This document shows positions 10,490 through 45,222 of a stretch of DNA of 64,000 nucleotides, in pieces; within the stretch, counting starts at the first letter, position 1; each line of letters starts with the position of its first letter. A program made the position numbers and the translations under genes. Source of the DNA: a virus; the IMG/VR virus record IMGVR_UViG_3300037088_000682, positions 1 to 64,000 of that record, one strand, 5' to 3'. The notes below the pieces were generated by a model, which saw only the letters and a program-made list of their open reading frames with translations, did no database searches and was not told the origin of the DNA.

Positions 10490-11347
10490 ATGTTCCCAAT
10501 TGACAATAGTATAGCAGCCTACATCACTCGCGTGAGGTCTCTTCCGATACTCTCACGCGAGGAAGAGGTACGTTTATGCAAGGCCTGGAGGGACAACCAG
10601 GATTACTCAGCCAGGGATCAGATCCTTCAGGCTAACTTACGCCATGCTTCAGCGGTCGCCCTTCAGTTCCGTCGGTACCCCATCCCTTTGGAAGATCTGC
10701 TCTCAGAAGCCAACCTGGGGCTCATGAAAGCCATTGATAGCCACTACGACCCCGACAGTGGAAACAGGTTCATCACTTTTGCCGTCTATTGGATTCGAGC
10801 TTACGTATTTCGGTATATCATCAAGTGTCAGAATGAGTCCAATACCGTGGCAGACTTCAGATCCAGGGACTACTTCAAGTTTCAAAAGGAGAAGGTCAAA
10901 GCCTACAATAGGTATCGATCCAGAGAAGAGGTCGAGCAGGCTTTAGTTGAGAGTATGGGTATGCCATTGGACAAGGTTCAAAAGTTAATGATGGCTACGG
11001 AAGGTAGAGATCTGTCCTTGGCGGTGGATATCCACGGGGATCGCGGTGGGGATCCCGTAGAATTAGTGGAGACCCTCGTATCGGATTCCCAGAGTCAAGA
11101 CGAGTACCTCGACGATACCAATCGTCAGAATCGATATAGAGCGGCGGTACAGAAGGCCTTGAAGGATCTGTCCCCTCGGGAACTCATTATTGTGAAAGAT
11201 CGCCTGATGCAGGATCCGGAGTCAGCCAAAACCCTTAAGGAAATCGGAGAGAAATTCGGAGTGTCCAGGGAAAGGACCCGTCAATTGGAGGTTAAAGCTG
11301 TTAAAAAACTCAGACTTAGGCTTGAATCGTTGAGGGGTTCAGTGTAA
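10490..11347 (+). CDS. RNA polymerase sigma factor, RpoH/sigma-70 class
   Basis: The 285-residue protein has region 1.2-2 (I-A-A-Y-I-T-R-V through L-G-L-M-K-A-I-D, F-I-T-F-A-V-Y-W-I-R-A-Y-V), a short linker, and region 4 (L-S-P-R-E-L-I-I-V-K, I-G-E-K-F-G-V-S-R-E-R-T-R-Q-L-E). Lacking region 1.1 and having little of region 3, it is closest in layout to heat-shock-type factors of about 285-300 residues. It would redirect polymerase to phage promoters, plausibly the GGTGTA family. Its stop overlaps the next gene's ATG. Confidence 0.95.
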   Translation: MFPIDNSIAAYITRVRSLPILSREEEVRLCKAWRDNQDYSARDQILQANLRHASAVALQFRRYPIPLEDLLSEANLGLMKAIDSHYDPDSGNRFITFAVYWIRAYVFRYIIKCQNESNTVADFRSRDYFKFQKEKVKAYNRYRSREEVEQALVESMGMPLDKVQKLMMATEGRDLSLAVDIHGDRGGDPVELVETLVSDSQSQDEYLDDTNRQNRYRAAVQKALKDLSPRELIIVKDRLMQDPESAKTLKEIGEKFGVSRERTRQLEVKAVKKLRLRLESLRGSV

Positions 11348-11634
11348 TGTTTCACTCAATGGATCACGCCCCTAAAGAAGCCTGGCTGAATACCACAGAA
11401 GGGAAAGCTTGGTTGGAGTACGCCTTTCGAAGGAATGAGGCCGGTAAGTTCACTAGTCTTACCATCATAATGGTACTTTTCGTTTTTGGTATGCGTATTT
11501 ACGATGTTCCTTTGGGTCAAATTCTACTCACTCTCCTTCTGTGGATCCCCACGATGACCGCCATTAAGAGCATTTCTTATGTCAATGCCAAAGAGCGGCT
11601 GGAGGATATTCGGAAGAAGCTCTCCAAAGGGTAA
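11347..11634 (+). CDS. Two-span membrane protein, 95 aa
   Basis: Two hydrophobic segments (about 37-52 and 56-72) follow a polar, charged N-terminus, and a Lys/Arg-rich tail ends K-K-L-S-K-G, so both ends are probably cytoplasmic. The ATG overlaps the sigma stop (TAATG), suggesting coupled expression; an anti-sigma or membrane-anchoring role is only a guess. Confidence 0.75.
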   Translation: MFHSMDHAPKEAWLNTTEGKAWLEYAFRRNEAGKFTSLTIIMVLFVFGMRIYDVPLGQILLTLLLWIPTMTAIKSISYVNAKERLEDIRKKLSKG

Positions 11635-11662
11635 CTAATATCCTTTACTAATATGGGTTTTT

Positions 11663-11668
11663 GGTGTA
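11663..11668 (+). promoter_or_regulatory. GGTGTA promoter-like element
   Basis: TTGGTGTATCAGGGGTGA precedes the ATG at 11679, ten bases after GTA. Confidence 0.6.
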
Positions 11669-11678
11669 TCAGGGGTGA

Positions 11679-12152
11679 ATGGGCTCTAAAAAAGATGAAC
11701 AGGCGGAAGAACTAGCAGCAACGATCAAGGCCCTACGGGAGATGAAGCCAATAAGCGTCCCTCTCGATGGTTCAAAAAGCATGCACCATATACTGGATAG
11801 TGTGAAGAACTCTTTCTTAGGAGGCCTTCGGTATGTTCTCGATGTGTCTTGGAACAGTTCCATCGAGGCACTTATCATTGCTCAGAACTCTGAGAGACAA
11901 GGTGACTTCGAACGTCACGTAGCTAACAACCTTGAGGAGGTTAAGGAGTGGCTACAGCGGGGAACCAAGGTTGAAGATCTCAGGAACTTCGTGCGAGTCA
12001 AGGCTGAAAACCTGAGTTTGAAAAACGAGATAGAGGAGCTGAGGTCAGAGTTAGGCCAACTTAAGCGGTCTAACGGTGATTCAGAATCTCCCTACTACTG
12101 TGGGCCTCGAATGATAATGATGAATCCCTTCATGGGCGGTCGTCGCTGGTAG
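11679..12152 (+). CDS. Coiled-coil protein, 157 aa
   Basis: Residues 5-25 and 95-135 are heptad-rich helices (L-K-N-E-I-E-E-L-R-S-E-L-G-Q-L-K). The C-terminus is Tyr/Gly/Met-rich and ends M-G-G-R-R-W. The GGTGTA element fixes the ATG. No family recognised; oligomerisation is likely. Confidence 0.75.
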   Translation: MGSKKDEQAEELAATIKALREMKPISVPLDGSKSMHHILDSVKNSFLGGLRYVLDVSWNSSIEALIIAQNSERQGDFERHVANNLEEVKEWLQRGTKVEDLRNFVRVKAENLSLKNEIEELRSELGQLKRSNGDSESPYYCGPRMIMMNPFMGGRRW

Positions 12153-12166
12153 TGTAAACTATTCCA

Positions 12167-12475
12167 GTGCCCGCCCGAGACATCTCCGACCTAGCTCAGG
12201 ACATGATTGACACCCTCGTGGGGGAGGGTGTCGACTTTGAGGCTGCCTGTGATGCTGCCGAGAACTCGTTGTCTGAACTCCTGAACCCAGTGTACTCCAG
12301 GATGTTTAATGAGTACATCGAGATTCAGACCAATTGTGAGAATGCAGCGGCCACGGTCACCGACAGAATACGGGAACAACGGGGGCAGCCGCAGCAAGAT
12401 CCCGAGCCTCCACAAACTTCTGATGAGCAGGAAGTTGTACGACGTTCTAGGTTCGAAAGGGATGAGGTTGTTTGA
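12167..12475 (+). CDS. C-tagged protein, 102 aa
   Basis: TAGTGTAAACTATTCCA leads into a GTG start ten bases after GTA, a leaderless arrangement with a GTG codon. The protein is helical (about 5-65), then proline/glutamine-rich, and ends S-R-F-E-R-D-E-V-V. Its TGA overlaps the next ATG. Confidence 0.8.
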   Translation: MPARDISDLAQDMIDTLVGEGVDFEAACDAAENSLSELLNPVYSRMFNEYIEIQTNCENAAATVTDRIREQRGQPQQDPEPPQTSDEQEVVRRSRFERDEVV

Positions 12476-12678
12476 TGCAAAATGAACCCAAGTACACTTG
12501 CCCTAAGTGCGGCGGTCATGAGTACGGGTCTTCTAAGAATCTTGATGGCACGCAGACTCGCCACTGCCATGGTTGGATACCCAACAGCAAAGATCCCTGT
12601 CTCTTCCATTGGCCTGAAAGTGAAGACCGGCATTACATAGCCGAAGAGCTCACTGAAGTTGAAGAGGTTGTCGAGTGA
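12475..12678 (+). CDS. Small zinc-finger protein, 67 aa
   Basis: C-P-K-C-G-G-H near the start and H-C-H-G-W further on provide zinc ligands, and the tail is acidic. The ATG in TGATG overlaps the upstream stop. The next gene overlaps by GTGA. Probably a small nucleic-acid-associated zinc ribbon; no specific role is evident. Confidence 0.75.
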   Translation: MQNEPKYTCPKCGGHEYGSSKNLDGTQTRHCHGWIPNSKDPCLFHWPESEDRHYIAEELTEVEEVVE

Positions 12679-13037
12679 GAACTCTCAAGGAAATCTTCGA
12701 AAAAGAACAAGACTTCGATGTCGCTATGTACGAGCTCGGGACGATGCTCGGGTTCTGGCCTGAAGTCGATTGGCAGAACCGCGAGAGCTGGCTTCAGTAC
12801 AACGAGAGGAAGTGGATCTTCTGGAGTAATAACCCGGTCGGCAACCACCTCTCGAAGATGCTTGAAGAACTCGTAGGGATGGGAGCACTCATCAAATGTG
12901 GGAAAGATGAGTTGGGGGTCAAGTACAACGAGTTATTCATACCGGATGCAGTAGGCCCCTCTGAGGATTCAGAAGAGGAAACCGGGTTCGTCGACCAGGA
13001 AGCGGGTTCTCACATCATACCCAAGGTGAAGAGCTAG
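12675..13037 (+). CDS. Hypothetical protein, 120 aa
   Basis: GTG start overlapping the upstream stop (GTGA). Residues 5-75 look helical with many Trp residues and an M-L-E-E-L-V-G-M-G-A-L-I helix, like a small winged-helix-type fold; the C-terminal third is acidic. It ends convergently with the next gene, overlapping by four bases. Confidence 0.7.
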   Translation: MRTLKEIFEKEQDFDVAMYELGTMLGFWPEVDWQNRESWLQYNERKWIFWSNNPVGNHLSKMLEELVGMGALIKCGKDELGVKYNELFIPDAVGPSEDSEEETGFVDQEAGSHIIPKVKS

Positions 13038-13307
13038 ATCACCTCATCTCGTTCAAATCTAGAAGGCGTTTCTGGGGGCTTGATCTCTGGAGCCTCGGAG
13101 AACCCATTTCATCTCGAGAATCCATTTCGTTAGCTTGGCCCTAACTTCCGGGCCACTCAAATGCGCTATATGATTGACTGATAGACTACAGTTACCTAAG
13201 TGTAAGGTAACATCAGGGCACCCATCATGGGCTCGAACTAGGGAAGCCCTCACTTGTAGCTTTTGGGTGTGTTCGAACTCCCCAGTGAACGGGTCTATGG
13301 CCACCAA
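13034..13307 (-). CDS. C-tagged protein interrupted by a +1 frameshift
   Basis: The frame starting with TTG at 13307 (V-A-I-D-P-F-T-G-E-F-E-H) reads to I-L-E-M near 13110 and then into a short run ending at 13059. In the +1 frame from about 13108 the sequence continues N-G-F-S-E-A-P-E-I-K and ends P-S-R-F-E-R-D-E-V-I at 13034. A single extra base in ATGAAATGG would explain the split. A hairpin lies just before the start codon. The core reads as a small beta sandwich, function unknown. Confidence 0.65.
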
Positions 13308-13325
13308 GGGATGCTACCGCATCCC
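13308..13325. repeat. Small hairpin before the 13.3 kb gene
   Basis: GGGATGC-TACC-GCATCCC is a perfect seven-base-pair stem immediately upstream of the TTG/GTG start of the minus-strand gene, where it could hide the start region. Confidence 0.45.
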
Positions 13326-13411
13326 GACAGGTTACTCAACCACTTTCTGAACCAATGGCCGCCATTTACCTGGAACTCTTTGGCTACTTGGGGTATTGAT
13401 CTTCACTCGGA

Positions 13412-13929
13412 ATGCCCTTTCGATCCCTCGACGACCTAATCACGGACATCACGGATACCATGCTAGAAGTGGCGGACTCTAGCAACGATCCCATTGTTGC
13501 TTATGAGAACTTACTGGAAAGCCTACCCCGCATCATCCGCTTGTTAATCGATGGGGTACTGGTCAATTCAGGTGATTCAGTAAAGATATCTCTAGTTAAC
13601 GGTCTAGCAACTAGGGTGCGAAGTCAGATAATGACTCGTATCAGGGTTCCTGCAGAAAGACATACTCTGGTTGACCCAGCCACCCTAACGGTTCCACTAC
13701 GAAATCGTCACCACTGGATTCGTAACATGGGACAGACGACTCTTTGCACCTGTGGCTACTGCTCCCTTGAGATTGAAGAAGGGGAGGTAACTAACCTGAG
13801 AGACAATCCCTGTCCGGGAAGACGTATTGATTACGCCCCCGAGATTGAGATAAGTTCCAAGTCAAAAAGAACACGGGTGTGCCAGAACCTGTCCGACCCA
13901 CCCGCTTCGAACGAGAAGAACCGATCTAG
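13412..13929 (+). CDS. C-tagged protein interrupted by a -1 frameshift at an A-run
   Basis: The start frame reads a helical domain (5-75) and a cysteine cluster C-T-C-G-Y-C (about 110-115). At the run of five A (13864-13868) the -1 frame takes over and ends V-R-P-T-R-F-E-R-E-E-P-I at 13929, two bases before the convergent neighbour's stop. The in-frame extension to 14008 would run deep into that neighbour and reads as junk. One missing A or ribosomal slippage explains it. Confidence 0.7.
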
Positions 13930-13931
13930 TC

Positions 13932-14165
13932 TCACTCCTTCTTGTCGGGAGCGCCCTCCAGCCGCCGGATGCTCTCGAGAGCATCCTCCTCATTGTCGAC
14001 GGTCTTAAGGATAGCCCCAGTGACGATCTCCACAGCAACATGAACCTTGTAGTTGGTCTTCCGTTCGAGAAGATCCAGAAGCTTGGCCAAGGTGGGGTCG
14101 GTAATCGCCCCCTTCTCCTCGACGGTTCTCACAATCTCATCTGCACTTGAACGAGTTCCAGCCAT
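13932..14165 (-). CDS. Small helical protein, 77 aa
   Basis: AGGAG precedes the ATG by six bases, a normal Shine-Dalgarno start. The protein has an N-terminal helix, a strand Y-K-V-H-V-A-V-E-I-V, and ends G-A-P-D-K-K-E. No family recognised. It is last in the minus-strand run coming from 14.9 kb. Confidence 0.72.
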   Translation of the reverse strand: MAGTRSSADEIVRTVEEKGAITDPTLAKLLDLLERKTNYKVHVAVEIVTGAILKTVDNEEDALESIRRLEGAPDKKE

Positions 14166-14177
14166 AGTTCTCCTGTG

Positions 14178-14432
14178 TTAGCGGGTTGAAAGAAGTGTCC
14201 AGGTGCTTCCAAGATTGCAAACCCGGTACAGCTTGTAGTGGGGGCCGCCGAAGGGCGGCTGGGTGTGATCGTGGATCTGCATCAACTCACAATCCTGAGT
14301 CTCGAAGCTGTAGTAGGATGGATCTCCCCTGTGAGAGCAGCCAACCTGTTGTAGGAGAACCCCTACTGTGAAAGCCCCGATGAGGGCCAGTGTTTTGAAG
14401 GTCTTGTTAGGCATTTTCATCGGAGCTTTCAC
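14178..14432 (-). CDS. Putative small lipoprotein or exported protein
   Basis: The GTG at 14432 overlaps the upstream stop (GTGA). After K-M-P-N-K-T-F-K comes a hydrophobic stretch ending L-Q-Q-V-G-C-S-H. The Cys could be lipidated, although Gln at -3 is unusual for a lipobox. The mature part has two more Cys and no recognised domain. An inverted repeat covers its start. Confidence 0.65.
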   Translation of the reverse strand: MKAPMKMPNKTFKTLALIGAFTVGVLLQQVGCSHRGDPSYYSFETQDCELMQIHDHTQPPFGGPHYKLYRVCNLGSTWTLLSTR

Positions 14433-14435
14433 AGT
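14365..14435. repeat. 19-bp imperfect inverted repeat across a gene start
   Basis: The arm at 14365-14383 and the arm at 14417-14435 match at 18 of 19 positions. The repeat includes the start of the lipoprotein gene and codons for its hydrophobic segment, so both strands can be read as M-K-A-P-M and G-A-F-T-V. Confidence 0.65.
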
Positions 14436-14536
14436 TTGGGTTCCAGAAAGTCATTCATGTCGGCGGAGGCCCAGAGTCCGCCGGGGCCCGCCCAAACCAC
14501 CGGCGCGAGTCTCTCAAGTTCGGTTGGGGTCGGCAT
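14429..14536 (-). CDS. 35-residue overlapping small protein
   Basis: The ATG overlaps the TAA of the upstream gene (TAATG) and the TGA overlaps the GTG of the next gene (GTGA), so this ORF sits in a tightly coupled run. The peptide starts M-P-T-P-T-E-L-E-R-L and ends L-E-P-K-L, with a Gly/Trp-rich middle. Support is context only. Confidence 0.6.
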   Translation of the reverse strand: MPTPTELERLAPVVWAGPGGLWASADMNDFLEPKL

Positions 14537-14859
14537 TATTTCACTGCCTCGGACTCAAGGCTTGGAGCACTGATTGTAGGTCGTTCTGGGTAGAACACTC
14601 CCATGCTCAGGTCTCCCGAGGCTACATGGTTGCGAAGTTCCCCGTGAAGTTGGCGGAGGGTCAAGAGCTTGGCCTTGGCTTCTTTCAGCCATTCGGCTTC
14701 GCCGGCCTTGCGCTCTTCAACCCAGGAATCCCTGTGTAATGGGTCAATCTCCCAGTCATATCCGCCAAACTTGGCTGAGAAAATCAACCAGAGTTCCCAG
14801 TTCAGGGCAAGCTCTTTGGCTACTTCAGGATTGAGAGGGATCTTTACAGCGGCTGGCAT
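14536..14859 (-). CDS. Hypothetical helical protein, 107 aa
   Basis: The ATG follows CCGTAGTATTAGTT at nine bases. A long amphipathic helix (about 50-85, W-V-E-E-R-K-A-G-E-A-E-W-L-K) dominates, with a Trp-rich front. It leads the coupled run 14859-14178. Function unknown. Confidence 0.72.
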   Translation of the reverse strand: MPAAVKIPLNPEVAKELALNWELWLIFSAKFGGYDWEIDPLHRDSWVEERKAGEAEWLKEAKAKLLTLRQLHGELRNHVASGDLSMGVFYPERPTISAPSLESEAVK

Positions 14860-14868
14860 AACTAATAC

Positions 14869-14873
14869 TACGG
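14869..14873 (-). promoter_or_regulatory. CCGTAGTAT promoter-like element
   Basis: Minus strand CCGTAGTATTAGTT then ATG at 14859, nine bases after CGTA. Confidence 0.6.
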
Positions 14874-14895
14874 ATGAGGGGTGAAGATCTCACCA

Positions 14896-15129
14896 CTAAC
14901 CATGAACAATATCGTGTCCGTTTTGAGCTTCCTCGAGCGCAATCTCCCCTTGATGGTACCCCAGCCGGTAGGTTGGGCTTGCGTCCTCTGGGCACCTTCT
15001 GCCAGAGCGGCCACAGTCCCGGCCTAGTCTCCAGATCTGGATGACCCTGTCGCTCTCTTCCAGGGTGGCTCCGCCGGGGCACCCCAGCGCGTGACTTCCC
15101 CCACCATTACCACAGTAGTGACAACTCAT
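14896..15129 (-). CDS. Small cysteine-rich protein, 77 aa
   Basis: M-S-C-H-Y-C-G-N-G-G-G-S-H-A-L-G-C-P-G-G gives a likely zinc site, with two more Cys later. The pattern (C-x2-C ... H-x3-C-P) resembles small phage zinc proteins. Start overlaps the upstream stop (ATGA). Confidence 0.7.
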   Translation of the reverse strand: MSCHYCGNGGGSHALGCPGGATLEESDRVIQIWRLGRDCGRSGRRCPEDASPTYRLGYHQGEIALEEAQNGHDIVHG

Positions 15130-21638: not shown

Positions 21639-22025
21639 GTGGCCGACAGGGTTGATGCCGTAACCGCCGTAGTCAAGGCCATCTTGAAGGGGCTTGTGGT
21701 TCAAACCAAGTTCTTTTCAGTAGATATGGAAAAGGTAGTACATTGGACTGATGTTGGGGGCGAGATCCTTATCCAGGATTACGATACTTTTGACCTGGCC
21801 GTGTTCTTCGTGGATATGGTAGGCTCCAAATACCCTAAAATAGCCCTGAGGGCTGCAAGGAAATCCTTGAGTGGAACAGCCATACACTTCAAACGGCCTG
21901 CAATCCTGCACCATTCAGATCCTCATGAGTTGTTCGAAGATTTGATAGCTCCCGATCTGCCCACGGTAGAGAGATCCTCATCTGAACCCCCAACGTTGAG
22001 ATCAAACCCTAACACTGAATTATGA
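21639..22025 (+). CDS. Hypothetical protein, 128 aa
   Basis: A GTG start with GAGGACGC before it. A-V-V-K-A-I-L-K-G-L-V helix, then beta strands (F-F-S-V, I-L-I-Q-D-Y-D-T-F-D-L-A-V-F-F-V) and a proline/serine-rich tail. The end overlaps the next ATG (ATTATGA). No family recognised. Confidence 0.66.
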   Translation: MADRVDAVTAVVKAILKGLVVQTKFFSVDMEKVVHWTDVGGEILIQDYDTFDLAVFFVDMVGSKYPKIALRAARKSLSGTAIHFKRPAILHHSDPHELFEDLIAPDLPTVERSSSEPPTLRSNPNTEL

Positions 22026-22591
22026 GAACCTACCTCTCAATCGACATTGACTTTTGGAATAACCTGGAAGCGGCCGAACGAGTTCTCACTAAGTTACTGC
22101 TCCGGCGCGGGGACATCCCTACTATTGCTGTGATGAACCATCAGCAGTTGCTGCCGATGGTTAACGAGTCCAACGCGGATGTCCTAGTCAATATCGATGA
22201 ACACTCAGATCTGTGCGATACGAGCGTATCCAGATTTGAGTGTGGTAGTTGGGTCTCTTACGTCAAATGGAGGAAGAACGGTAAGTATGTCTGGTTGCGA
22301 AATAACCATGGGACTGCCAAAGGAAACTGTAACCATGATGCTTCCGGGTGGGATAGTGGTACCGATTGGTTGGTAACCAAGAGCTACTTCAGAGGACAGT
22401 GGACTGACCTGTGTAAGTACCTTCCAGACTGCGTTGGAATCGGCCTATGCATGAGCCCGTCCTTCTCTGTCTGCGGCGCCCCAGAGCTGTTCAGGATGCT
22501 TGTGAAGGCATTTGATCTCCCATACAAGCGCGGACGATCCAAAGAATGGTTCAATTGCACTAGACGCCCCCCGGGCATTCAAGCAGCATAG
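22022..22591 (+). CDS. Putative UPF0489/arginase-like-fold protein
   Basis: The sequence Y-L-S-I-D-I-D-F-W near the start and V-N-I-D-E-H-S-D-L around residue 60, with a conserved W-V-S-Y-V-K-W, fits the UPF0489 layout, in which Asp and His residues in such motifs would bind metal. Length (189) is short for that family. The assignment is by motif only. It is followed by the prepilin-like peptide gene. Confidence 0.55.
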   Translation: MRTYLSIDIDFWNNLEAAERVLTKLLLRRGDIPTIAVMNHQQLLPMVNESNADVLVNIDEHSDLCDTSVSRFECGSWVSYVKWRKNGKYVWLRNNHGTAKGNCNHDASGWDSGTDWLVTKSYFRGQWTDLCKYLPDCVGIGLCMSPSFSVCGAPELFRMLVKAFDLPYKRGRSKEWFNCTRRPPGIQAA

Positions 22592-22601
22592 GAGTACAGT
22601 T

Positions 22602-22721
22602 ATGATAAGAAATTCATTGAAGCGCGGCCTCACCCTTGTGGAGTTGATGGTTATCGTAGCAGCGATATCTCTAGTCGGAGCCGGTATTGTGGCGTTAGGG
22701 ACTCGCTTCGGTTGGTTCTAG
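22602..22721 (+). CDS. 39-residue prepilin-like peptide (type IV pilin signal)
   Basis: TAGGAG lies nine bases before the ATG. The peptide is M-I-R-N-S-L-K-R-G followed by L-T-L-V-E-L-M-V-I-V-A-A-I-S-L-V-G-A-G-I, a textbook class III signal: basic leader, Gly at the cleavage point, Glu at +5 and a hydrophobic helix. It then ends R-F-G-W-F with no globular pilin domain. It would be cut by host prepilin peptidase and sit in the inner membrane, where it could interfere with type IV pilus or type II secretion assembly. The function is inference. Confidence 0.8.
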   Translation: MIRNSLKRGLTLVELMVIVAAISLVGAGIVALGTRFGWF

Positions 22722-23275
22722 TACTCCTGATACCCTGGAGAAGGCGGTGGGGCTTCAATGTTTGGTTGTGGGGTGATCGTCATGAGAACCACGGCCACAG
22801 CCTCTTCCAAGGGTAGGGTCACTTTAGTGCCGTTCTCCAGGTCAACCCAATAGAGACCCTCGGGGTTCTTCCTCAACATGAAGCCGTTCTGTATCATCCC
22901 GACAACCCCAGATCGGTCAATGTGGGAGCCACCGATAATACCATCCCCCCTAAGATCTCTGACGTGGAGACCAGCCTCTCGAAGCTTTTCGATGGCCCGC
23001 TCGTGGGTCATTGGACTTAACTCAACGTTCTTGATGAGGAAGTCCACCGCTTCTTCAAGGGCCATGTGACGCTTCATATCCCTTTGGCAATCGGCAACCA
23101 ACCCCACATCATAGATTTCGTTCCCGAGGGGTATGAGCACGAAAGCGTTCCGAACCATCGTGATGGAGTCGACAACTTCCCGCCACCCGCCGCCAAAGAA
23201 GGATCCGTTTTCCCCTAGATCCTTGACGTACAGGCCGGCCCCTCGAAGTTTTCCCACCGCTTCTTCTGGTGTCAT
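22718..23275 (-). CDS. Protein with two related repeats, 185 aa
   Basis: Two copies of a unit of about 85 residues are visible: M-T-P-E-E-A-V-G-K-L-R-G-A-G-L-Y-V-K-D-L and M-T-H-E-R-A-I-E-K-L-R-E-A-G-L-H-V-R-D-L, each followed by a Gly-rich turn and a helix ending E-E-A-V. The ATG at 23275 follows a minus-strand GGTGTA by nine bases; the longer ORF starts upstream of that element. It is divergent from pyrF. Function unknown. Confidence 0.75.
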   Translation of the reverse strand: MTPEEAVGKLRGAGLYVKDLGENGSFFGGGWREVVDSITMVRNAFVLIPLGNEIYDVGLVADCQRDMKRHMALEEAVDFLIKNVELSPMTHERAIEKLREAGLHVRDLRGDGIIGGSHIDRSGVVGMIQNGFMLRKNPEGLYWVDLENGTKVTLPLEEAVAVVLMTITPQPNIEAPPPSPGYQEY

Positions 23276-23284
23276 CTTGCTTAA

Positions 23285-23302
23285 TACACCAGACTCGGTG
23301 TA
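23285..23302. promoter_or_regulatory. Back-to-back promoter elements TACACC-N6-GGTGTA
   Basis: The minus-strand GGTGTA (23290-23285) is nine bases from the ATG at 23275 and the plus-strand GGTGTA (23297-23302) is ten bases from the pyrF ATG at 23313. The two are separated by six bases. Confidence 0.7.
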
Positions 23303-23312
23303 TAGGTCACCC

Positions 23313-24011
23313 ATGCCTCAACCTCACGAATATATCACTTTCGCCCTTGATGTCCCCGATGCGCAGCAGGCCGAGAAGTTCGTCACAACCCTCGACCCAT
23401 ATGTGGGTGCATTCAAGGTAGGGCTGGAACTTTTCGTGAAGACTGGACGACTCTTCAGCGAGCTCACCAAGAAATCGATCATCCTCGACCTCAAGCTCCA
23501 CGATATCCCGGAGACGGTTGAGCGTGCGGTCAAGACCGGTGGTGACCGGGGCGCCAAGTATATGACGCTTCACGCCCAGCAGAGGCAGACTCTGGAAAAA
23601 GCCGCCATGGCCGCGGAGCCCTTTGGAATGACCCTCCTGATGGTCACTGTTTTGACCTCAATTGGTGAGGGTGATTACCGAGACCTTGATTACAACCCGA
23701 ACATGAACCTCTTGGGTAGAGTCAGTCTGTTAACCAAGCTGGGTTATGACTCTGGGATCCGTGGCTTCGTGTGTTCACCCAGAGAAGTTGGAGCGTTGAA
23801 GAAGATGCGTCCAGACACCTTCTATCTTGTTCCTGGAGTACGCTCTGCAGGAGCTGATGTTGGTGATCAGAAACGCGTGGGCACCCCAGCACAGGCGGTC
23901 ATTGACGGAGCCAACCTTGTGGTGGTGGGTCGACAGATCCGTGATGCTGCTGACCCCATTGAAGCCGCCAAGGCAATAGCTGAAGAGATTCGAGTCGGGG
24001 TTAATTCGTAG
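23313..24011 (+). CDS. pyrF: Orotidine 5'-phosphate decarboxylase
   Basis: The 232-residue protein has the family motifs: A-L-D-V (11-14), K-V-G-L-E-L (35-40), the catalytic D-L-K-L-H-D-I-P (59-66), V-P-G-V-R near residue 170, and V-V-V-G-R-Q-I near the end. It converts OMP to UMP, the last step of de novo pyrimidine synthesis. Length is close to bacterial PyrF. The GGTGTA ten bases upstream sets the start and rejects a 60-codon upstream extension. pyrE lies at 62.8 kb. Confidence 0.95.
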   Translation: MPQPHEYITFALDVPDAQQAEKFVTTLDPYVGAFKVGLELFVKTGRLFSELTKKSIILDLKLHDIPETVERAVKTGGDRGAKYMTLHAQQRQTLEKAAMAAEPFGMTLLMVTVLTSIGEGDYRDLDYNPNMNLLGRVSLLTKLGYDSGIRGFVCSPREVGALKKMRPDTFYLVPGVRSAGADVGDQKRVGTPAQAVIDGANLVVVGRQIRDAADPIEAAKAIAEEIRVGVNS

Positions 24012-27251: not shown

Positions 27252-27785
27252 ATGAGCTACAACCGAGTTTACCTTGCGGGCCCGGACGTATTTTACCCGG
27301 ATGCCGCCGACCGAGCAGCCAGATTGAAGGAGATGTGCCGTAAGCGCGGTCTGGAAGGCGTATTCCCCTTAGACTCGAGTCTTGTACTCCTTGATCCACT
27401 TGAACAAGAAGAGAACGGGTTCCGAATATACAGTGCCAACTTGAAGCTCATCGAAAGTTGCTGGTCTACACTCGCCAATATGTCCCCCTTCCGAGGCCCT
27501 TCAATGGATGTTGGTACTGGGTTTGAGATGGGGTATAGCCGTGCCCTGAATATGATTGTTGTCGGGTACACCAACTCCAAGACAGAATACAAGACTCGAG
27601 TCCAGGAAGATGGCCTCCTCATTGAGAACTTTGGGATGGTTGACAACTTGATGGTTCATGGGGCTGCCTGTGGAGATATTTTTGAAGATCCTGAAGAAGC
27701 TATCGAATACTTAGCCAGACTATTCAATGATGGTGAGCCCACTCAGCCGATCAAGAAAGAGGGTGAGGAAACTACCGCGGTGTAA
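27252..27785 (+). CDS. Nucleoside 2-deoxyribosyltransferase
   Basis: Y-L-A-G-P-D-V-F (7-14), D-V-G-T-G-F-E-M-G-Y (about 86-95) and N-L-M-V-H (about 132-136) are signatures of the N-deoxyribosyltransferase family, with the Glu of G-F-E-M as the likely nucleophile. It exchanges bases between deoxynucleosides, or hydrolyses deoxynucleoside monophosphates, in salvage. An HD phosphohydrolase gene follows. The Val-stop at the end forms the next GGTGTA. Confidence 0.88.
   Translation: MSYNRVYLAGPDVFYPDAADRAARLKEMCRKRGLEGVFPLDSSLVLLDPLEQEENGFRIYSANLKLIESCWSTLANMSPFRGPSMDVGTGFEMGYSRALNMIVVGYTNSKTEYKTRVQEDGLLIENFGMVDNLMVHGAACGDIFEDPEEAIEYLARLFNDGEPTQPIKKEGEETTAV
27779..27784 (+). promoter_or_regulatory. 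GGTGTA overlapping the upstream stop
   Basis: GGTGTAACCACCGAG precedes the ATG at 27794; the TAA within it is the stop of the upstream gene. Confidence 0.5.
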
Positions 27786-29119: not shown

Positions 29120-30469
29120 GTGGACGTTCCTGAAAAAGTAGTTGAAGTTTGCAGAAGGCTCACATCAGCCGGCTTTCAATCCTGGTTGGTGGGGGGAGCC
29201 GTGCGAGACTCCATTATGGGGCGGGAAGCTCATGACTGGGATATCGCAACCAGCGCGAGACCGCCTGATGTAGCAAAGTTGTTCAGATCGGTTGAGACCG
29301 GACTGAAACATGGAACCCTGACGGTATTGGTTGAGGACGATCAGTTCGAGGTCACCACCTTTCGGGGTGAGGGTGAGTACTCAGACGGCCGTCGGCCGGA
29401 CGAGATTCAGTTCCTAGACCGAATCGATCAAGACCTGGCCCGCCGGGACTTCACGATGAATGCCATCGCCTATGACCCGATTGGCAATGTCTTCTGTGAT
29501 CCATTCAACGGCCAGGACGATATCAAAGCTCGAATAATCAGGGCCGTTGGTGATCCTCTACAAAGATTCTCCGAGGATGGATTGAGGAGTCTGCGCGCAT
29601 TGAGGTTCATGGTCTCGTTGGAATTCGATATTGACATCCCAACCTACAGGGCTATTCCTCGAACCTTGGACACTTACGCGAAAGTAAGTGCCGAGCGGAT
29701 TCGGGATGAGTGGTTCAAAATCATGGCCGCGCGCCGCCCATCGGAGGCCTTTAGGGCCATGGACTATACAGGTATGCTGAAACTTACGGTACCCGAGATG
29801 GTACCTATGATCGGTTGTGCCCAAAATAGGTACCATGAGTTCGACGTCTGGGAACACAGTTTGTCCACAGTGGACGCCTGCCCAGCTGAAGACGTTGTCC
29901 TGAGGTTGGGAGCACTTTTCCACGATGTTGGGAAACCCGCATCCAAAGGTACCCATCCCGAGCACGGAGATGCTACCTTCTACGACCACGAGACCATCGG
30001 AGCCAACATGGCTACCGAATTTCTACCTCGAATGAAACTATCCAACGAGGATCAGGAGAGGATTGTCCACCTGGTGAGGCACCACTTCATCCGGTACAGT
30101 GCCGATTGGTCGGCAGCTACTATCCGCCGGTGGGTGCGCCGAGTTGGGTTGGACAACGTGGCCAGTCTTTGCACTCTGGCCCGAGCGGACATCTTCGGAA
30201 AAGGCAAAGCAAGAGTCCAGCTGGAAGAGGACACCATCAACGAGTTGGAATCCAAGATTGCCAATATGAAGGTCACCGAGGTTATCCCCACCTCCACCAA
30301 GGTGCTCACCATCAACGGATGCGACGTAATGACCCACCTGGGCATTGGCCCAGGGCCTACCGTCGGGAAGGTTCTGGCAGCCCTCTTAGAGCTCGTAACC
30401 GATAACCCGGAAGTCAATACCCCCGAGAACTTATTGACTCTGGCTGAGACCATAGTAGCATCCCCCTAG
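29120..30469 (+). CDS. cca: CCA tRNA nucleotidyltransferase with HD domain
   Basis: The 449-residue protein has a class II nucleotidyltransferase head (L-V-G-G-A-V-R-D at 23-30, H-D-W-D-I-A-T at 38-44, A-R-R-D-F-T-M-N-A-I), the neck helices, and an HD domain (L-F-H-D-V-G-K-P, with a later H-H). It adds or repairs the 3' CCA of tRNAs. It is full length. A phage copy would keep tRNAs usable if host defences trim them; that role is inferred. Confidence 0.95.
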   Translation: MDVPEKVVEVCRRLTSAGFQSWLVGGAVRDSIMGREAHDWDIATSARPPDVAKLFRSVETGLKHGTLTVLVEDDQFEVTTFRGEGEYSDGRRPDEIQFLDRIDQDLARRDFTMNAIAYDPIGNVFCDPFNGQDDIKARIIRAVGDPLQRFSEDGLRSLRALRFMVSLEFDIDIPTYRAIPRTLDTYAKVSAERIRDEWFKIMAARRPSEAFRAMDYTGMLKLTVPEMVPMIGCAQNRYHEFDVWEHSLSTVDACPAEDVVLRLGALFHDVGKPASKGTHPEHGDATFYDHETIGANMATEFLPRMKLSNEDQERIVHLVRHHFIRYSADWSAATIRRWVRRVGLDNVASLCTLARADIFGKGKARVQLEEDTINELESKIANMKVTEVIPTSTKVLTINGCDVMTHLGIGPGPTVGKVLAALLELVTDNPEVNTPENLLTLAETIVASP

Positions 30470-33482: not shown

Positions 33483-33784
33483 TGAGTCGATACACTGAGT
33501 TGGTTGGGAAGCTTCAGCAAGGCGAGACCATCACTTACCGGGAATTCGGGAACTCGATGTTGCCCAAACTCAAGAGCCGTGTCCTGGTGACCGTCAGTCC
33601 CTGCCAGCTTGAGGACTGTGCAGTGGGGGACATCGTCCTAGCCAAGGTTCGTGGAGCCCACTACCTGCACTACGTGAAGGCTATCTCCAACCAAGGAGTT
33701 CAGATAGGAAATGCCAGCGGCCACATCAATGGCTGGACTCGAAACGTCTACGGGAAACTCGCCTCCTACGAGAACCCTCAATGA
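33482..33784 (+). CDS. S24/S26-like serine peptidase fold, candidate
   Basis: The 100-residue protein has R-E-F-G-N-S-M-L-P-K-L (like G-x-S-M-x-P with the nucleophile Ser), G-D-I-V-L-A-K-V-R-G and H-Y-V-K-A-I with a Lys where LexA and UmuD have the general base. G-H-I-N-G-W-T follows. A small soluble S24-type peptidase or fold relative is likely. TAATG overlap upstream. Confidence 0.7.
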   Translation: MSRYTELVGKLQQGETITYREFGNSMLPKLKSRVLVTVSPCQLEDCAVGDIVLAKVRGAHYLHYVKAISNQGVQIGNASGHINGWTRNVYGKLASYENPQ

Positions 33785-34358
33785 GAGTGCCTTTAACCTA
33801 CCAGAAGATACCAGATACCCACAACTGCCCCCTCAAACAGTGCCTAGTTTTTGAGAAGTACGACGGGACTAACCTCCATTGGGTATTGAATCCTAAGTTT
33901 GGTTGGATAGACTATGGTACCCGCCGTGATCGGTTCCCCTTCAACATCGCTGGAGGTAGGAAGTTCGAACAGGCCCATCCTGAATTATCTGGAGTTCAGC
34001 CAACGAGATTGTGGTATTCACTGAGTACTTCGGGCCTAACTCGTTTGCCGGGATGCATCAACCCGGGGACGAAATGGATCTGATCATCTTTGATGTTCAG
34101 ATCGATGGTAATCTTCTTCCTCCAGAAGAGTTCCTCAGGGTCTTCAAAGACTTCAACATCGCTCGAGTTGTCTTCAAAGGCAAGTACTCGGGTCAGCTCT
34201 TCAATGACGTTCGGGAAGGCAAGTACGGGGTGAAGGAAGGCGTGGTGGTGAAGGGCGTAGCCGATGGTCAGCTCTACATGGCCAAGATTAAGACAAACGC
34301 TTACCTAGAACGCTTGAAGAATACGTTCGGGGATTCCTGGAAAGAGTACTGGGAGTAG
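33781..34358 (+). CDS. RNA ligase, split by a -1 frameshift
   Basis: The first frame contains motif I (E-K-Y-D-G-T-N, adenylated Lys27) and G-T-R-R-D-R-F-P-F, and runs to a stop at 34083. The second frame, entered near 33995-34010, continues N-E-I-V-V-F-T-E-Y-F-G-P-N (motif III), E-G-V-V-V-K-G (motif IV) and Y-M-A-K-I-K-T (motif V). Together they form a complete RNA_ligase-family enzyme of about 190 residues, sealing RNA ends with ATP. No long homopolymer marks the junction. Confidence 0.85.
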
Positions 34359-43082: not shown

Positions 43083-45222
43083 ATGAGTATGTATAAACTA
43101 GAACAAAGAAAAGTCGGTGACCTGATACCGCACCCTCACAACATAACATACTTCGGATACCCTGATCAGGATCCGAGCTTCCCTACCATCAGCGAGTCTA
43201 TCCATAAGAACGGTGTTCGGGAACCACCCATCATCAAGGAAGACGGAACCATCCTCTCGGGCCATATCCGTATCGCCGGATTCATGCTGTCATTGGCTAA
43301 GAATGGCGTAAAGAAGGCCAATATCACAAAGGAACTCATTCAAGTTCAAGTGCACCCAGGATTTGAGAATGAAAAAGAGGAAGTCAAGTATCTCATTGAT
43401 GCTAACATCGAGAGAAGGCAGCTTACACTTCAAAAAATAGCTAGTATCTGGGACCTGTTCACTAAGGAGTATGTAAAGCCAAGGTTTGGTCGCCCAACAA
43501 AAGATGAGGTAAGACCTACAACTCCAAAAGAGATGGCTTCTGAATTAGGGATATCTGTCAAGTCAGCAGAGTCTCTACTAATCGTCAAGAACAGCTTGTT
43601 GGTCCCTGACATCGTAAAAGAGAAGGTATTCAGCAAGAAGCTATCCCCACAATTCGTGGCCAAAGCTGTTATCTTTGCAGAGGAAGAGGCTAAGCGGGAG
43701 CAGAGGGAACCAACCCAAGACGACATCCTTCGATACCTTCAGAACCCTCCACCTAAGACGACTTTGGATATCATTCAAGAGGTGTCCACAAAGCCTGTTA
43801 CTAAGAAGCCTGTTGAAAAACCCGCTGCGGTCAAAGAACCTGAACCACCCCCGGTGGTTGTTGAAGCACAACCAGAGCCAAGCTTCGAAGATGTACTCGT
43901 ACAACTGGACGAGCCCCCAGATCCACCCGAGGTTGTTGAAGTCAAGGCCGCCGAAACCGAAGTTGTTGAACGACACCAAGGCAGAAGAGCCCCCTGTTGT
44001 TAAACAGGGAGTAATTGATCTCCACACTGAATACCCAATAAGTGCTATCAAAATAGAGCCTAAAAACAAGGATCTATTGGAAAAGCACCTTAAAATAGTC
44101 CAACCTGTTGCACCCGAAGAGCCTCAAACGTTTGCTGATGTCGCCGATACCTATACGGACACAGCCGGAACCTTTGCTGACACTTCCAACACTTTTGAAG
44201 TCGAAACCGAAGAGCACTTGGCTGAGGTAGTCAAGATAACTGATGCAAAGGATCGGATCCTCGCCGAGTACATAATGACTGATGCAGGTAAGGTCAAGTT
44301 AGCTACCGCAATAAAGATCGGATTTGATGAGGCTTTAGATATACTACTCGAGAAGTCTATCGAGTACAAACTTGATCACGCCCGCAAAACCATCGAGAAC
44401 CTGCTGGGAGACATCACTCTCAACGATACGATCACTAGGCACCTCCTTGGCCTCCATACACGCTTGGATGCCTTCCTGAAGGCCATTGAAGCCATCCCCT
44501 CTGCGGAGACCATCACCTTACCAGAACCGGCTCCACAAGCCCCTGCACCCTATTACATACCGGAGGATATCACTAGCAAGATTGCTCTCTGCCAATCCAT
44601 CTTGAGCGATATCACTGAAGTGGATGACCCGGTACAAGTCCGAGATCTCCTGCTGGATACCATTCAAGAAGCCAAGGGGGCGGTTGACCGCCTAACTCAA
44701 ACTAAACGAACACTCGAGCTGAATGGTCTGTATTGTGTCGATTGTCTCGAGCCCCAGTTCAATACCGTTCATGGTGCTGTCTGCGAGAATGGCCACGGAG
44801 GTTCCTTAGGAATCACCGAGGCTCTTGCCAAAATTGAAGAGTCCAAGAGGGCTTCTGCTCTAAAACCAGATCCAGAACCCGTTGAGGTAATCAACCCAGA
44901 CGAAATTGACATGGGGCCAGAATCGGAAACCGTTCCAGCGACCACTTCCACAACGGAGCTGGATAACGATGAAATAAGCCGACTTCTCAACGATATTAGC
45001 CCAACTACACCTCCGGTAGCCAAGGCTGAACCAGCCCCAAAGCCCAAAAAAGATCCCAAAGCCAAGCCAGTCCCAGTAGTCAAACTAGAACCTGCTCCCG
45101 CACCAGTAGTCAAGGCTGAACCTGAGTCCCCCAAGCCAACTCCAGTGGCAGCGAGTACCGGAACCGGTGATCCAGTCGAGGAACTCCTCTACGAGTTCAT
45201 GGACGTACTCAGCGGTGTATAG
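43083..45222 (+). CDS. ParB-like protein, split by a +1 frameshift
   Basis: The first frame (43083-44003) has a ParB/Srx-type N-terminus (V-G-D-L-I-P-H-P-H-N, I-L-S-G-H-I-R-I-A-G), a helix-turn-helix (M-A-S-E-L-G-I-S-V-K-S-A-E) and an acidic Pro-rich linker. At about 43971 the +1 frame continues D-T-K-A-E-E-P-P-V-V-K, then a helical domain, a Cys pair site (C-V-D-C ... V-C-E-N-G-H) and a Pro/Ala/Lys tail to 45222. Together they give about 713 residues. A DNA-partitioning or nuclease-related ParB fold is likely. Confidence 0.75.

Follow-up and report, generated by a model that had tools for sequence, protein, structure and literature searches.

A helix-only prepilin-like gene of 39 codons in a jumbo phage sequence, and short prepilin-like genes on other viral contigs

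The window, the whole 64,000 nt stretch of viral DNA that was analysed, contains a 39-codon gene whose product likely carries, judging from its sequence, a prepilin-type signal followed by one membrane helix. The peptide is an extreme example of a type of phage gene product that has drawn little notice, not a one-off. It may imitate the N-terminal helix of a type IV pilin or T2SS pseudopilin and interfere with assembly or regulation, as the product of a functional accessory (moron-type) gene; this reading is put forward tentatively, at rather less than even likelihood.

The ORF begins with an ATG at 22602 and ends with a TAG at 22719-22721. Its full translation is MIRNSLKRGLTLVELMVIVAAISLVGAGIVALGTRFGWF, and with the predicted cleavage point marked as ^ the product reads MIRNSLKRG^LTLVELMVIVAAISLVGAGIVALGTRFGWF. 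All the sequence features that an earlier note on this DNA had described are present: K7-R8-G9, then L-T-L-V-E, which places Glu at +5, then a hydrophobic helix that ends in a short tail, RFGWF. AlphaFold2 models a single helix over residues 12-36 (core pLDDT about 93-94), which a sequence of this kind would lead one to expect and which adds nothing further. The ORF occupies the gap separating two flanking genes, and its stop codon overlaps that of a convergent 198-aa ORF. Its codon use is typical of the genes of this phage, falling at the 31st percentile of coding windows, with 5% of non-coding windows scoring above it. Scans for promoters and terminators yielded nothing informative. The real window holds the strict combination of motif and helix once, none of 250 dinucleotide-Markov copies (16 Mb) has it, and a relaxed version of the motif has 0.012 occurrences per 64 kb in this comparison, which gives no clean p-value since the motif was chosen after the fact. 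It is very likely that 22602-22721 is a real gene.

Table 1. Features at and around the 39-codon gene
Feature	Position	Strand	Basis or remark
Helix-only prepilin-like gene, 39 aa	22602..22721	+	PF07963 22.6 bits, codon use, helix model
Leader MIRNSLKRG, predicted prepilin peptidase cut after Gly9	22602..22628	+	Sequence; PF07963 alignment from residue 7
Mature peptide as predicted (30 aa), with Leu+1, Glu+5, a single membrane helix and a tail that ends in GWF	22629..22718	+	Sequence; AlphaFold2
Shine-Dalgarno AGGAG	22590..22594	+	7 nt 5' of ATG, overlaps upstream gene's stop; read in sequence
Upstream 189-aa gene	22022..22591	+	63% identical in G001
Convergent 198-aa ORF	22718..23314	-	Stop overlaps peptide gene's stop; two internal repeats
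Orotidine 5'-phosphate decarboxylase (pyrF)	23313..24011	+	72% identical in G001

The Pfam profile N_methyl (PF07963) matches the peptide narrowly, its score standing against a cut-off of 21.2 bits (E 7e-5). In the genome scan the match has 21.4 bits and is the sole one in the whole 71,488-bp record. The prepilin signal that the earlier note had read from K-R-G followed by L-T-L-V-E is upheld. The anatomy of a class III signal is present: the basic leader is short and has Gly as its last residue, Glu stands at +5, and about 20 hydrophobic residues come after it. At +1 there is Leu in place of the usual Phe. Phe at this position of prepilins is usual, not obligatory, and Leu is found there in 2 of the 67 short viral-contig examples among the matches listed, from scans that admitted F or L only. 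The NCBIfam model TIGR02532 (IV_pilin_GFxxxE) did not match the 39-aa peptide at E 0.1, while it does match two of the phage peptides described below, PhiW-14 gp120 and that of contig L123. The PHROG prepilin-like families 10597, 13280, 11263, 27437 and 3433 give weak matches (E 0.0019 to 0.2) through the shared N-terminus alone.

The globular C-terminal domain of a type IV pilin or T2SS pseudopilin is absent, as the ORF stops 30 residues past the cleavage site. A pilus or secretion gene setting was not seen either, going by collinearity and N_methyl: the neighbours are phage genes collinear with a related contig, and the record has the single N_methyl match. Three other pilin types were considered and rejected. 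A Flp (Tad) pilin (PF04964) was set aside as Pfam at E 0.1 returned N_methyl alone, a two-part pilin of the PilA-N/PilA-C style as a second pilin-like gene was not seen nearby, and a frameshifted longer pilin as the + frames have no pilin-like continuation.

The ORFs of the window find their best matches, in order, in one stretch (about 172-232 kb) of the 512,571-bp viral contig IMGVR_UViG_3300028654_000001 (G001), with protein identities mostly of 40-90%. This collinearity of the whole window indicates that it is a piece of a jumbo phage, and on such comparison the phage setting of the gene is secure. In G001 pyrF comes 39 bp after the 189-aa gene, where in the window the peptide gene and the 198-aa ORF stand between them. 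G001 has neither of the two, which suggests a lineage-specific insertion or a loss in G001. Of the two, insertion in the lineage of the window is simpler; a loss from G001 is possible. No PF07963 match was found in G001 or in a second, distant relative (G002, 436 kb), and the peptide is therefore dispensable. The 198-aa ORF contains an internal repeat of ~84 residues in two copies, which share 37% identity over 84 residues, and its start codon overlaps the pyrF start on the opposite strand. Homologue searches found no relative of it, and it therefore offers no clue to the peptide.

Elsewhere in the window, the region 10490-14900 encodes a sigma-70-like factor (10490-11347) alongside several ORFs; the corresponding position of G001 (182,966-184,181) lacks an equivalent of this region. 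Pairs of window ORFs at 505-1945, 33781-34358 and 43083-45222 each match one longer G001 ORF and are apparent frameshifts or split genes, whether through assembly error or real. Among the window proteins compared, conservation is highest in a papain-family cysteine protease (PF00112; 47931-48947, - strand), which is 91% identical in G001. One jumbo-phage stretch carries, in coordinate order, pyrF, a nucleoside 2-deoxyribosyltransferase (27252-27785) and a tRNA nucleotidyltransferase (29120-30469).

In phages, tblastn with the 39-aa peptide returned weak matches at best. One such match, in Aeromonas phage Aes508, turned out to lie in a prepilin-like gene of the phage. The window's own sequence had zero occurrences in viral contigs and genome contigs when these were scanned for the exact motif, and the sole matches of canonical prepilin queries to the phage collection were records resembling bacterial DNA, tblastn being insensitive for so short a query. 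As no homologue of the exact peptide was found, selection on it is not measurable.

Short prepilin-like genes were sought more broadly by degenerate-codon scans of viral contigs with the pattern G-[FL]-T-[LF]-x-E followed by classification, those with a mature length of up to 100 aa being counted as short. At least 67 distinct short ORFs were found, that of the window included (at least 66 others); since the pattern itself demanded the motif, similarity among these matches is by construction and is not evidence of conservation. Among the matches listed, 45 of 67 are preceded by a Shine-Dalgarno-like site. Helix-only forms, with 24-41 mature aa, number at least 11 with the window's own, i.e. 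at least 10 others. One of 29 aa, on a 210-kb contig (L201), lies immediately 5' of the genes for terminase and portal, one of 32 aa lies within a compact array of small genes on a 205-kb contig (L123), and one of 44 aa has an AGGAGG site on a 152 kb contig (L137). On a 222 kb contig (L233), NrdD and SbcC-like genes adjoin the peptide. A larger recurring family, of about 75-95 aa and on viral contigs of up to 374 kb, has the C-terminal sequence 'GINGMTESRCIEGYKF...RQI.DEFGKGV.C' (L012, L013, L020, L031, L035, L040, L046, L060, L082, L088, L098, L100, L106, L111, L118, L173 and L247); protein UTS52068.1 of the cultured Synechococcus phage BUCT-ZZ01 belongs to this 'GINGMTESRCIEGYKF...DEFGKGV.C' family.

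Of the carrier contigs examined for PF07963, nearly all give a single match, which sets them apart from a bacterial pilus locus. At the thresholds used, no neighbouring genes were detected that are common to the window and the carriers, or among the carriers. The lack of other detectable genes in common with the window suggests that such genes arose or were acquired more than once. The earlier note had called a peptide of this kind unusual on a phage. This stands in so far as these genes are rare, yet they recur across unrelated phages, cultured ones among them, and do so in helix-only forms too.

Among cultured phages, contig L182 is Delftia phage PhiW-14, whose gp120 (YP_003358973.1) is a helix-only prepilin of 44 aa annotated as hypothetical, as are most short prepilin-like phage genes. 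The PHROGs contain several short prepilin-like families, one of them named pilin, and Aes508 gp085 is already annotated as similar to pilin/GspH. Contig L256 is Aeromonas phage 25, for whose prepilin-like gene tblastn gave relatives in 36 phage records; T4-like Aeromonas phages account for more than 30 records with such a gene. GFTLIELM is identical in all nine Aeromonas sequences fetched, while 5 of its 8 codons show synonymous changes and the leader and helix differ between sequences. The invariance of the motif despite varying codons points to the peptidase motif being under purifying selection in Aeromonas phages, and this set is the sole independent evidence of motif constraint. In UP87, GomatiRiver_11 and AhFM11 a ~75-residue domain is fused ahead of the cleavage Gly, so that cleavage would release the domain. 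In Aeromonas phage 25 and its relatives (L282-L290) an SPFH-type lipoprotein gene precedes the prepilin-like gene; the latter lies shortly 5' of the rI lysis-inhibition gene in Aes508 and GomatiRiver_11.

The Glu5-bearing helix is the part of a pilin that is handled by the peptidase, the assembly platform and pilin-sensing kinases. The peptide would enter the inner membrane of the host, keeping its basic leader inside the cell, and a host prepilin peptidase of the PilD/GspO type would cut after Gly9. The freed helix with its Glu5 could then compete with real pilins or pseudopilins wherever the helix is recognised, candidate points being the peptidase, the platform protein PilC/GspF, the base of the growing filament and a pilin-sensing kinase such as PilS. 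Having no globular domain, the peptide could not build a normal filament and so would stall or down-regulate pili or secretion during infection. The simplest benefit would be that competing pilus-dependent phages are kept out, and such interference probably serves superinfection exclusion. Cleavage, joining of the pilus base, capping and superinfection exclusion by the peptide, the course that the earlier note had envisaged, are each plausible, with the phage membrane peptide PfsE as a precedent. We infer expression of the peptide, and likewise its cleavage, target and benefit. In P. aeruginosa, PilS-mediated feedback from inner-membrane pilins is documented (PMC13170266) and slowed pilin processing leads to phage resistance (PMC8088505). 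A truncated pilin can also provoke envelope stress via its C-terminus (PMC3684759).

Support for imitation of a pilin helix comes from the PF07963 match, the absence of an equivalent in the shuffled copies, the start signal, the tight packing and the codon use. The recurrence of helix-only ORFs, the motif constraint in Aeromonas phages and the precedent of the phage peptide PfsE also speak for it. Counted against it, on sequence comparison, are the missing homologue, the absence from G001 and G002, the Leu at +1, the TIGR02532 miss and the weak PHROG matches. The same Leu and the same miss would suit a small membrane protein with one span and a different role, such as a holin or antiholin accessory or a lysis or membrane effector, with the prepilin motif as a membrane signal or incidental. 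Short proteins of this sort are numerous in phages, and the Aes508 prepilin-like gene is near rI. This is nevertheless unlikely: motif and helix together are missing from shuffles, the full K-R-G-x-T-L-V-E-L fits the peptidase substrate rule and not a generic span, and the motif is invariant in Aeromonas phages. It is distinctly unlikely that the gene is a functionless remnant, left when a longer prepilin-like gene of phage or host lost its globular part and kept just the N-terminus. The + frames hold no C-terminal pilin-like sequence, the space being filled by the intact convergent ORF with its overlapping stop; the start site is ideal, codon use is gene-like, and helix-only forms recur within phage gene arrays. 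On the other side, some longer phage prepilins carry a small C-terminal domain, from which helix-only forms could have arisen by decay, and the gene is missing from the nearest relative, G001.

The processed peptide might instead be a helper subunit, built into a host filament or T2SS pseudopilus (for example in priming or at the tip) and promoting an activity useful to the phage. Short pilins can be true filament subunits, and the weak PDB matches include a Geobacter geopilin domain 1 protein, but the mature 30 aa are far below the matched geopilin chain and a partner C-terminal pilin gene was not seen nearby, making this quite improbable. A very improbable alternative is that the C-terminus, ...RFGWF, extends into the periplasm and there sets off an envelope stress protease of the DegS/AlgW type. 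The tail is aromatic and there is precedent in truncated PilA (PilA108), ending in FTF, and in MucE, ending in WVF (PMC3684759), but the tails of other helix-only phage prepilins differ, which would leave the class unexplained. Lastly, it is highly improbable that the ORF is no gene but a reading frame left open by chance in a gap of 120 bp, given the motif, the null comparison, the codon use, the start site and flanking genes that leave exactly the gap that it fills. In favour of chance are the failure to find a homologue, a Pfam match barely over the cut-off, and a motif that is one reader-chosen motif among many possible.

If the pilin imitation is seen more widely, large phages may repeatedly gain or evolve helix-only pilin mimics that are matured by the host prepilin peptidase and jam pilus or secretion assembly, as a distinct, unrecognised anti-pilus class. 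This is possible but doubtful; if true, the 39-aa peptide would be one of its smallest members. In the open-access literature searched no paper was found on the function of short prepilin-like phage proteins, which stand in databases as hypotheticals or 'pilin'. Their recurrence down to the bare helix, with motif constraint in cultured Aeromonas phages, makes them a testable class. A pilin cut down to the part recognised by the machinery would suit phage control of pili, competence and secretion, and a bare-helix pilin would be a minimal probe of pilin recognition.

Of the named proteins, PhiW-14 gp120 resembles the window peptide in being encoded by a large phage and in having a short basic leader, G^FTLIE and one helix without a globular domain. 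It sits in an array of small hypothetical genes and differs in the Phe at +1, in a longer polar tail past the helix and in having no neighbours in common. PHROG 11263, with ORF086c of Aeromonas phage 25, is likewise a lone phage prepilin-like gene, with its own invariant GFTLIELM, but has an extra conserved tail of ~45 residues with two Cys. The Geobacter geopilin domain 1 protein (PilA-N; PDB 9egp, 7tgg), also short and mostly N-terminal helix, is among the nearest PDB sequence matches, weakly (E 0.09). It is a cellular pilin, however, and about twice as long (matched chain of 69 residues against the mature 30 aa). PfsE (PA0721) of Pf4 has, to our knowledge, no known prepilin cleavage site, and it has a YXWGW motif that the window peptide, with its RFGWF tail, does not. 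Like the window peptide in its predicted mature form, it is a phage inner-membrane peptide on the scale of 30 aa (PfsE being 30 aa), with the N-terminus inside and an aromatic cluster, and it binds PilC, blocks pili and excludes phages (PMC8764522).
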